Origin: Halorussus pelagicus
Lineage (GTDB): Archaea; Halobacteriota; Halobacteria; Halobacteriales; Haladaptataceae
Direction: 5' to 3'
Assembly (NCBI RefSeq): GCF_004087835.1
Contig: NZ_CP035119.1
Coordinates: 1,302,001-1,366,000 of the forward strand
Length of the DNA stretch: 64,000 nucleotides
Shown here piece by piece: positions 29,903-32,601 of the stretch (positions are counted from its first letter, which is position 1; the number at the start of each line of letters is the position of its first letter). The position numbers were made by a program, and so were the translations under genes. Below the pieces are notes generated by a model. That model saw only the letters and a list, made by a program, of their open reading frames with translations. It was not told where the DNA came from and searched no databases.

Positions 29903-30642
29903 ACCGAGACGTTCGCGTCGCGGTCTTCCGCCCGGACGACGAACGCCTCGCCAGCGCAGTCGAACTGCTGGACTCGCTCGGTGCCGACCCCGTCGCCGAC
30001 CCGATGCTCGAAGTCCGGCCGACCGGCGACGCGCCCGCCGACGGCGAGTACGTGATTCTGACGAGCAAGACCGGCGTGGAACTGGCCGCCGAGTCCGGAT
30101 GGGACCCGAAAGGAGCGACCGTCTGCGCAATCGGCGAGAGTACGGCCGACGCGCTCCGCGACGCGGGGTACGACGTGGACATCGTCCCCGACGAATACAC
30201 CTCGGCCGGACTGGTCGAAACCCTGAGCGGAGAAGTCGAGGGAGCCGAAGTCGAAGTCGCCCGGAGCGACCACGGGAGCGCAGTCCTGACCGATGGTCTC
30301 CGCGACGCCGAAGCCGACGTAAACGAAACTACGCTATATCGATTGGTCCGTCCCGAGGGGTCGGGCGACTCTGCCGCGCTCGCCGCGGAGGGCGAGTTGG
30401 ACGCCGCCCTCTTCACCTCGTCGCTGACGGTGGCGCACTTCTTGGACGCCGCCGACGAGCGCGGCGTGCGCGAGGAGGCGGTCGAAGGATTGAACGACGC
30501 CGTCGTCGGCGCTATCGGCGACCCGACCCGCGAGACGGCCGAGAGCGAGAGCATCGAGGTTGACGTGGTTCCGGAGGTGGCCGACTTCGAGCAGTTGGCC
30601 TGCGAGGTTGTGGAAGAAGCCGCGCCGACCCACCACGAGTGA
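29899..30642 (+). CDS. hemD: Uroporphyrinogen-III synthase
   Basis: Closes hydroxymethylbilane with inversion of ring D to uroporphyrinogen III, the branch point to siroheme, cobalamin and heme. It has 247 residues. Sequence conservation is low in this family; the supporting parts are VAVFRPDDERLASAVELLDSLG, YVILTSKTGVEL, VCAIGESTADALRDAGYDVDIVPDEYTSAGLV, and AALFTSSLTVAHFLDAA. The four-base overlap with hemC makes the assignment secure. Confidence 0.92.
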   Translation: MNRDVRVAVFRPDDERLASAVELLDSLGADPVADPMLEVRPTGDAPADGEYVILTSKTGVELAAESGWDPKGATVCAIGESTADALRDAGYDVDIVPDEYTSAGLVETLSGEVEGAEVEVARSDHGSAVLTDGLRDAEADVNETTLYRLVRPEGSGDSAALAAEGELDAALFTSSLTVAHFLDAADERGVREEAVEGLNDAVVGAIGDPTRETAESESIEVDVVPEVADFEQLACEVVEEAAPTHHE

Positions 30643-31143
30643 GAAATCCGGAGGAAGACTATTTTTTCGGGGTCTCGCGCACTTGTGAGGAGTTCGGGGC
30701 GCGGTGCTGTGAAGTTGCGGCCTGAATGGCGTCGGCAGTAGCTAGCTTGGTTTTCCTCCGAGACTGTAGAACGTGGTCGAACCGAAGAAGCTAGCTTCAG
30801 GCTTGAGCCACGGAGTCACCGCAACCGCACAGCACCGCAACCACGAACCTCACGCCTCCCCAACCTCGTCGGCCGCGTCCGCGGCCGACTTCCCTCGCGC
30901 GAAAGGGCGCGGCGCGCAGTCGCGCGCCGCGCCGTCGGACAACCCGCGTCCGACGAGCCATGCGCTCGCATCCGCTCGCGCAGACGCCCGCACGCGCCCG
31001 ACTAACTGGTCAACCGAGCGTGCGAGTGGATAGTCAACCGAACGCGTAAGTAGAACTCGCCAGACGTGTGCGGAGACGCCACCGACATCCGGGCACTCCG
31101 AGACGCGGAGGTTTATAAGCGATAGCGACTTACCTTGCTTCGA
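30643..31143. repeat. Hairpin-rich intergenic region between hemD and the DHH nuclease
   Basis: Three perfect hairpins in series: GTCGGCCGC/GCGGCCGAC with loop GTCC (30868-30889); a 12-bp stem beginning GGCGCGGCGCGC with loop AGTC (30906-30933); and GTCGGAC/GTCCGAC with a 7-base loop (30934-30954). Further on are a direct repeat GTCAACCGA (about 31012 and 31034) and a palindrome GAAGCTAGCTTC near 30787. The upstream CTCACGCCTCCCCAACCTCG resembles sequence I recall as a dispersed haloarchaeal repeat. There is no credible gene. Confidence 0.7.
31112..31118 (+). promoter_or_regulatory. TATA-like box of the DHH nuclease gene
   Basis: TTTATAA sits 25 bases before ATG 31144, the spacing of a leaderless archaeal promoter. 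Confidence 0.6.
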
Positions 31144-32601
31144 ATGGCTTCCGCTGGTCCCGTCCCCGCCCTCGCAGAGCGCGCCGCCGCGTGCGCCGAC
31201 CGACTGCGGGACGCCGACGAGGTGTTGCTCGCCTCCCACATCGACGCCGACGGACTGACGAGCGCCGCAATCGCGTCGGCGGCGCTCGAACGCGCGGGCA
31301 TCCCCTTCAAGACCGTCTTCAGCAAGCAGTTGGACGCCGAGGAAGTCGCGGCCATCGCGGCGACCGACTACGAGACGGTGCTGTTCACCGACTTTGGGAG
31401 CGGCCAGTTGGACATCATCGCGGACCACGAGGCGGCGGGCGCGTTCACGCCGGTCATCGCCGACCACCACCAACCCGCCGACCCCGACACCGAGTTCCAC
31501 CTGAACCCGCTGCTGTTCGACATCGACGGGTCGTCGGAACTCTCGGGTGCTGGCGCGGCGTACGTCCTCGCCCGCGCGTTGGAATCCGGAAACGGCGACA
31601 ACCGCGATTTGGCCGGACTCGCGGTCGTTGGCGCGGTCGGCGACATGCAGACGACCGACGGCGAGTTGGTCGGCGCGAACCAGTCCATCGTCGAGGAGGG
31701 CCAAGCCGCGGGCGTCGTAGAAGCGCGGACAGACCTGTCGATGTACGGCAAGCAGACCCGGCCGCTCCCGAAGATGTTGGAGTACGCCAGCGACACCCGC
31801 ATCCCCGGCATCACGAACAACGAGAACGGCGTCCTGCGGTTCTTGGACGGTCTCGACGTTCGACTCAAGGACGACGACGGCGAGTGGCGCTGTTGGGTGG
31901 ACCTGACCGAGAGCGAGCGAAGCACCGTCTCGAACGCGCTCATCCAGCGCGCACTCTCGAAGGGCGTCAGCCCCGACCGCATCGACCGACTGGTCGGCAC
32001 CGCCTACACGCTCACCGACGAACCCGAGGGGACCGAACTTCGAGACGTGAGCGAGTTCTCGACGCTCCTGAACGCGACGGCGCGCTACGAGCGCGCCGAC
32101 GTGGGACTGGCGGTCTGTCTGGGCAACCGCGACGGCGCGCTCGACTGCGCGCGCGAACTGCTCCGGAACCACCGCCGGAACCTCTCGGAGGGCCTTCAAT
32201 TGGTCAAGCGCGAGGGCGTCACCCGCGAGGAGAACGTCCAGTGGTTCCACGCCGAGGACCGCATCCGCGAGACCATCGTCGGCATCATCGCGGGGATGGC
32301 GGTCGGTTCCGAAGGCATCGACCGCGGGACGCCCATCATCGCTTTCGCCGAAAAAACGGAGGACAGCGACGGGAGCGAAGCAGGCGACGACGAGGTGACG
32401 GAGGTAAAGGTCTCGTCGCGCGGGACCCCCAACCTCACGCGCAAGGGACTGGACCTCTCGGTCGTGATGCGCGAAGCGTCGCAGGCCGTCGGCGGCGACG
32501 GCGGCGGGCACAACGTCGCCGCGGGCGCGACAGTTCCGAAAGGGACCGAAGCGGAGTTCGTCGCGCTCGCCGACGAACTCGTCGGCGAGCAGTTGAGTTG
32601 A
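31144..32601 (+). CDS. DHH-family phosphoesterase, RecJ-like single-strand nuclease
   Basis: Protein of 485 residues with the DHH layout: motif I SHIDADGLTSA (about 28-38), motif II TDFGSGQLD, motif III IADHHQPAD, and a fourth metal motif, GAVGDMQ. The DHHA1 domain ends with GGDGGGHNVAAGATVP. Archaeal RecJ-like proteins are 5'-3' or 3'-5' single-strand nucleases tied to replication (GAN-type) or repair. Relatives bind the GINS/MCM complex, which cannot be checked here. ATG 31144 (MASAGPVPALAERA) is preferred over TTG 31135. Confidence 0.9.
   Translation: MASAGPVPALAERAAACADRLRDADEVLLASHIDADGLTSAAIASAALERAGIPFKTVFSKQLDAEEVAAIAATDYETVLFTDFGSGQLDIIADHEAAGAFTPVIADHHQPADPDTEFHLNPLLFDIDGSSELSGAGAAYVLARALESGNGDNRDLAGLAVVGAVGDMQTTDGELVGANQSIVEEGQAAGVVEARTDLSMYGKQTRPLPKMLEYASDTRIPGITNNENGVLRFLDGLDVRLKDDDGEWRCWVDLTESERSTVSNALIQRALSKGVSPDRIDRLVGTAYTLTDEPEGTELRDVSEFSTLLNATARYERADVGLAVCLGNRDGALDCARELLRNHRRNLSEGLQLVKREGVTREENVQWFHAEDRIRETIVGIIAGMAVGSEGIDRGTPIIAFAEKTEDSDGSEAGDDEVTEVKVSSRGTPNLTRKGLDLSVVMREASQAVGGDGGGHNVAAGATVPKGTEAEFVALADELVGEQLS

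Follow-up and report, generated by a model that had tools for sequence, protein, structure and literature searches.

The PATEs (palindrome-associated transposable elements) of Haloquadratum walsbyi, in the part of their description that is accessible (PMC3119063), have neither terminal inverted repeats nor a transposase; they carry palindromes like those of IS605-type transposons, in which small mobile repeats are inserted. The accessible part of another article (PMC6006769) gives the IS200-type subclass 1.1 as the only Y1 subclass seen in Archaea. A 2025 survey of REP sequences covers bacteria and archaea, and its main text, as far as available, is without any word starting with “Halo” (PMC12306157). 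For the repeat family presented below, no description was found in a collection of open-access literature, which leaves out most subscription journals. The three hairpins from which we started quite probably lie within a single copy of a mobile element that is old, non-coding and present in many copies in haloarchaea, and that resembles the PATEs.

Hairpins at the hemD/DHH locus

The window, a stretch of 64,000 nucleotides of Halorussus pelagicus, contains the segment 30868-30954 between genes for HemD (PF02602, E 3.7e-44) and for a DHH/DHHA1 protein. Folded as single-stranded DNA, this segment forms exactly three perfect hairpins, with stems of 9, 12 and 7 bp and loops of 4, 4 and 7 nt respectively. 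The stems, loops and both neighbours (hemD and a DHH nuclease) are thus those of the original prediction. Compared with 200 dinucleotide-preserving shuffles the z-scores of the fold energy are -5.34 (DNA, plus strand), -5.48 (DNA, minus strand) and -5.16 (RNA, plus strand), i.e. about -5.3, and 0/200 shuffles fold equally well. The preceding sequence, CTCACGCCTCCCCAACCTCG, had been taken for a conserved leader, and rightly so: its 14-mer core (one mismatch at most) occurs 26 times in the own genome versus 3 times for the reversed control.

The repeat is larger than the 87 bp initially noted. It covers about 30787-30999, with a fourth hairpin at 30961-30982, and is composed as follows (basis in brackets).

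30701..30749, minus strand: reversed degenerate partial copy, made of end box and C-rich tract (inverted repeat I1; reverse own-genome hits)
30787..30999, minus strand: whole repeat copy, about 213 bp (own-genome blast covers about 141-359 of the query 30643-31140)
30787..30808, plus strand: lineage-specific end box GAAGCTAGCTTCAGGCTTGAGC (aligned own copies)
30819..30843, plus strand: tract of ACCGC units, rich in C here and in G on the minus strand (direct repeat D11; also in other copies)
30849..30865, plus strand: most conserved box CTCACGCCTCCCCAACC, minus strand GGTTGGGGAGGCGTGAG (genome counts of the 15-mer CACGCCTCCCCAACC)
30868..30889, minus strand: hairpin A, 9 bp, loop 4 (fold and family-level tip analysis)
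30892..30901, plus strand: conserved box CCCTCGCGCG between hairpins A and B (gapped pattern CTCCCCAACC...CCTCGC)
30906..30933, minus strand: hairpin B inner stem, 12 bp, loop 4 (inverted repeat I3 and fold)
30933..30955, minus strand: hairpin X of the optional double-hairpin module, CGTCGGACAACCCGCGTCCGACG (inverted repeat I15 and copy comparison)
30956..30958, plus strand: linker AGC between hairpins X and Y (linker counts in fetched loci)
30961..30982, minus strand: hairpin Y of the module, TGCGC...GCGCA, loop TCGCATCCGCTC (copy comparison and RNA fold)
30993..30998, plus strand: hairpin B outer arm and conserved end, GCACGCGCC (common to own copies; outer pairing in folds)

The structured strand of the window copy is the minus strand, so that the transposon-like 5' end lies at the high coordinate. 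Hairpin A is here the all-Watson-Crick form of an exchangeable tip which matches IS605-type left-end hairpins. Box CCCTCGCGCG contains, as GCGCG, the outer arm of hairpin B; the third hairpin of the original prediction belongs to the X-AGC-Y module, placed in this copy after the inner stem of hairpin B. The partial copy stands upstream of the main copy, head to head with it: the arms of inverted repeat I1 (30701-30720 and 30819-30838) are 90% identical, and own-genome blast hits align in reverse to positions 42-106 of the 498-nt query. When 17 hemD/DHH loci were compared by eye, the element was seen in the same orientation in 5 other genomes and as a remnant in 3; it was not seen in 8.

Separately from the repeat, the promoter and start of the DHH gene, TTTATAAG..GATAGCGACTTACC..GAATGGCTTCCGC (window 31112-31160; orthologs L213-L228 and L230), are strikingly conserved genus-wide. 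The upstream neighbour of this gene varies between genomes despite the conserved promoter.

Copy number and distribution

Blast of 30800-31050 against the own genome returned at least 56 matches at E ≤ 0.001 (best 40 of 179 candidate regions scored) and that of 30643-31140 at least 58 (40 of 168-179 candidates scored). Thus the segment has relatives and is not unique. In this genome at least 44 core copies could be read, and the gapped pattern CTCCCCAACC...CCTCGC, which spans hairpin A, has 32 sites there (control, 1). With this pattern copies appear in 17 of the 18 genomes of the genus, the number ranging from 0 to 77 per genome; blast finds copies in 35 of 59 genomes, the own genome included. 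At the scale of the order the exact 15-mer CACGCCTCCCCAACC is present in 72/293 genomes and 16/87 genera, the reversed-pattern control giving 1 or 0 per genome. A GTDB scan yielded at least 119 matching stretches, whose titles include Halorussus, Halorubrum, Halosimplex, Halobium and Haloparvum; two of these 119 (L110 and L168) are not haloarchaeal and were removed from the gene-context counts. Among the plasmids of PLSDB the repeat occurs only in one megaplasmid of Halorussus caseinilyticus, at 8 places. No near-identical recent copies were noticed. One element family accounts for many odd intergenic palindromes in several haloarchaeal genera. A viral origin was considered and rejected: the 15-mer is found in 19 viral contigs, none of which carries the element, and there was no phage match.

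Anatomy of the repeat family

The copies that were read follow one plan: an end box, the C-rich ACCGC tract, box CTCACGCCTCCCCAACC, hairpin A, box CCCTCGCGCG, hairpin B and the end CACGCGCC. The 24 own copies with both ends measure 153-283 bp. The family has conserved ends, with a GCTAGC or CCCTTTnAGTCC type box plus CACGCGCC, while the end boxes of IS605 are missing. In the 24 own copies the ends form no terminal inverted repeat, as an end and the reversed other end share at most 4/15 identities. Among 186 copies the 5' box is of the GCTAGC type in 51, of the CCCTTTnAGTCC type in 75 and of neither type in 60. The two types are never found together.

That copies would share the same order of stems held for hairpins A and B, whose order is constant, and did not hold for the X-AGC-Y module, which is optional and occupies two alternative slots, before or after hairpin B. 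At site 14856 the module precedes hairpin B in the own genome and follows the inner stem of hairpin B in the relative G009. In the fetched loci AGC (32) and its reverse complement GCT (33) are the commonest 3-nt linkers between neighbouring perfect hairpins, and the 2-nt linker CG occurs 47 times. The stems are almost perfect, yet their sequences vary between copies and between orthologs. Hairpin modules may have been exchanged between copies, by conversion or by secondary insertion.

Orthologous sites and genomic placement

The flanking genes of the own copies were located in two relatives, G009 and G013; from 36 whole flank pieces, 44 comparisons with both flanks were obtained. To count as kept, a site had to exceed 6.3 bits, the highest score among 440 shuffled controls. 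By this measure the element, whole or as a remnant, persists in 10/44 comparisons (8/20 in G009, 2/24 in G013), two of the ten being barely above the threshold (6.6 and 7.3 bits), and the orientation is that of the own genome in 10/10. Site 2213804 in G009, at 6.0, was scored absent, a remnant being visible by eye. The 34 remaining comparisons have no element and mostly shorter spacers, which may reflect loss. These comparisons yielded no clean empty site whose ends could be defined. Between species, the spacers outside genes cannot be aligned, and the junctions at the element-less sites are for this reason not readable.

Of the copies in the 117 haloarchaeal GTDB loci, 96 could be assigned to a gap between two genes called by a simple gene caller, and 180 gaps of at least 150 bp served as control. 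The copies lie in 38 convergent, 15 divergent and 43 co-directional gaps, against 33, 52 and 95 respectively for the control. Convergent gaps are thus enriched (p 1.7e-4) and divergent gaps depleted (p 0.018). Between co-directional genes of the GTDB loci there is no preferred orientation (22 with, 21 against). In the own genome 15 copies are convergent, 10 divergent, and 8 and 11 co-directional. The copies are therefore intergenic, without orientation preference, and favour the 3' ends of genes. No bias for a replication strand was seen either (runs test z 1.37 for 44 own copies and -1.0 for 57 sites on contig C1 of G002, another genome of the genus).

The convergent enrichment and the divergent depletion would suit an archaeal counterpart of REP/BIME sequences with a role for the host, i.e. 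repeats acting as supercoil-driven cruciforms or as boundaries at gene 3' ends, selected and immobile. Such a role would also fit the position and orientation kept at some orthologous sites, and the conserved G.A mismatches described below, which argue for upkeep of the structure. We nevertheless find it unlikely, because 34 of 44 comparisons in two close relatives are without the element, because 0 to 77 copies across a genus would be odd for a needed function, and because avoidance of promoters would by itself yield the same placement.

Mismatches in the stems point to DNA hairpins

In the 186 copies, 147 of 2658 stem positions are mismatched: CT/TC 80, GT/TG 18, AC/CA 17 and GA/AG 12. Neither strand shows an excess of wobble (G.U-type) pairs, GT/TG and AC/CA being about as frequent. 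The 80 CT/TC mismatches are G.A mismatches when read on the minus strand. There, in the 147 distinct hairpin-A regions, they are often tandem (GA facing GA) and alternate with Watson-Crick dinucleotides that vary among copies. The mean score of this tip signature is 6.59 over the 147 regions, versus 0.19 after shuffling (20 repeats, best 0.51). This scoring favours GA/GA and was redone without the bonus. With neutral scoring 73/147 regions still fold at a score of at least 4; C(GNA)G makes up 31 of the 41 triloops in these, where base composition predicts 10%, and the tandem mismatches are GA/GA (25), GG/GA (12) and AG/AG (2). C(GNA)G loops, like tandem sheared G.A pairs, are hallmarks of very stable DNA mini-hairpins, e.g. 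d(GCGAAGC). RNA is also able to use G.A pairs, and the case for DNA thus rests on the lack of wobble pairs and of a preferred orientation.

The original prediction had left room for a structured non-coding RNA. An RNA-level element, either a structure in a UTR or an RNA that acts in trans and is related to the TnpB guide RNA, would account for the strong folds on both strands and could make use of the strand-asymmetric G.A mismatches. It would not account for the lack of wobble excess, nor for the even orientation at co-directional genes in the GTDB loci and in the own genome, and no match was found in Rfam 15, either for window 30400-31400 (E up to 1) or for 8 loci at gathering score. An RNA gene was rejected in view of these wobble counts, orientations and Rfam searches, and an RNA-level element in general appears very improbable.

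An RNA of the minus strand was suggested by folding the 186 whole regions without GU pairs, which gave AC/CA 64 versus GT/TG 36. The difference vanished in the real stems (GT/TG 18 versus AC/CA 17), and this candidate was dropped. In the tip folds the single mismatches of the minus strand are AC/CA 41 versus GT/TG 17, mainly from long tips that align poorly, and do not amount to a wobble excess. A tandem GA with a GNA triloop on one strand, in stems free of wobble, provides a simple signature separating DNA-level hairpins from RNA genes.

The tips of hairpin A recur at left ends of IS605-type transposons

The own genome carries one Y1 gene, on contig C4, and four TnpB-type genes; all of them lie outside the repeat units. 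Repeat copies match the left ends of two of the four own TnpB transposons, where the same G.A-rich tips are present. For instance, copy 357549 is 94% identical over 32 nt to the own transposon L361. Sixteen further TnpB loci were fetched from haloarchaeal plasmids, out of 84 matching records. A left-end tip was obtained from 11 of 19 loci; in the others the regular expression gave no left end. Eight of these 11 tips match element tips in short blast, all on the same strand and 0 on the other. The tip-bearing strand of the transposons is the sense strand of tnpB and corresponds to the minus strand of the window. One tip, type 1, which has three conserved mismatches, is found in 30/147 element tips and in 3/11 left ends; in 944 kb of GTDB loci it occurs 23 times near elements and 0 times elsewhere.

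Right-end tips, tested with 7 representatives of the 17 found, do not match element tips. They overlap the 3' end of tnpB, and TnpB guide RNA arises at the 3' end of tnpB; the lack of a match speaks against a relative of the guide RNA. Template switching or similar palindrome-making errors of replication in GC-rich intergenic DNA, with no protein recognition, would explain nearly perfect stems whose sequences differ between copies and orthologs, but correction of palindromes would erase the conserved non-Watson-Crick positions and boxes, and the same tips stand at IS605 left ends with type 1 nowhere else in the 944 kb, which makes this explanation the least credible of all.

Three other features of these loci were observed. 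The left-end hairpin of L361 (own contig C2) itself contains two further hairpins, which strongly resemble the X/Y modules. At the right ends of the TnpB loci (17 among L360-L362 and L364-L379) the hairpin that overlaps the end of tnpB encodes the last residues of the protein, e.g. ERTASAVSE in L361. Near the only Y1 transposase gene, at about 2150-2720 of locus L231 (G000:C4), lies a 64-bp minisatellite of about 8 head-to-tail units with TAGCTAGC or a close variant.

On the structured strand, 185 of the 186 copies lack the IS605 box GATACAGC, 185 lack GTAGTTCA, and all 186 lack CCTTCCTCA and GGCGCTAAG; these boxes include the outer left-end boxes and the right-end box. The kinship with IS605 thus rests on the hairpin tip and on the architecture, and the absence of terminal boxes from at least 185/186 copies indicates a variant rather than a simple deletion derivative.

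Eight of the 18 genomes of the genus have no Y1 transposase, and two of these contain 69 and 41 copies. No resident TnpA is therefore needed for the repeat to persist. The present copies are probably inherited relics, or dependent on passing transposons. Dependence on a resident RAYT/TnpA had been a candidate and is unsupported, given these many-copy genomes without Y1 transposase.

Interpretation

The compound mobile palindromic unit that the original prediction had proposed as its other possibility is well supported: the repeat is multicopy, modular and intergenic, and has a hairpin in common with IS605-type left ends. In our best reading it is a non-autonomous element that makes use of single-stranded hairpins of the IS200/IS605 kind, is mostly inherited and eroding, and has exchangeable hairpin modules; likewise, hairpin A is best read as drawn from the same pool of tips as the left ends of IS200/IS605-type transposons. 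Replication or repair would expose one strand (the minus strand in the window), on which the tips would fold with tandem G.A pairs and GNA loops. The element, which has no terminal inverted repeats, could then be cut and pasted by a TnpA-type (Y1 HUH) transposase coming from an IS605-type transposon. We infer recognition by TnpA and past transposition of the repeat.

A bolder view, which we put forward tentatively and consider possible rather than likely, is that of a haloarchaeal REP-like system recognised by shape and not by sequence, in which the repeats (hundreds, vertically kept) and the IS605-type left ends use one pool of tips. Tips would be characterised by tandem sheared G.A pairs together with GNA loops, and those of new sequence would still be recognisable to TnpA. 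If TnpA does read tips by shape, this system would show how a transposase tolerates fast-changing end sequences.

Comparison with known systems

Bacterial REP/BIME sequences with RAYT are, like the repeat, intergenic, multicopy, palindromic and mosaic, and often lie in convergent or co-directional gaps, according to the accessible parts of two articles (PMC3733652, PMC6006769). As described there, REP families share a consensus stem and carry either a GTAG or a CGTC tag, whereas stems and tips of the repeat vary. The repeat also departs from RAYT-associated REPs in that the own genome has one Y1 gene and 8 of the 18 genus genomes have none.

With haloarchaeal IS200/IS605-type (TnpA/TnpB) transposons the repeat has in common the left-end hairpin tip, on the same strand in 8/11 loci. 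It differs from them in having no transposase gene, no GATACAGC or GTAGTTCA boxes and no left-end outer box CCTTCCTCA. A transposon of this type proper carries TnpA and/or TnpB between its ends, and the unit of 153-283 bp carries neither.

The PATEs of H. walsbyi are closest. As far as the accessible description of PATEs goes (PMC3119063), both are short, non-coding and high in copy number, lack terminal inverted repeats and have IS605-like palindromes with insertions of small repeats. Unlike PATEs, the repeat extends order-wide to other genera, has no recent near-identical copies that were noticed and no IS605 terminal boxes, and carries double-hairpin X-AGC-Y modules at either of two fixed positions. 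Of six features considered for PATEs after that part of the article, three are found in it, namely the absence of terminal inverted repeats, palindromes related to IS605 and a length too short for a transposase. The other three concern the absence of target duplication, strain-specific insertions and a conserved terminal oligonucleotide, on which the site comparisons between species and the end boxes described above bear. We therefore name it PATE-like, as a variant of this kind of element.
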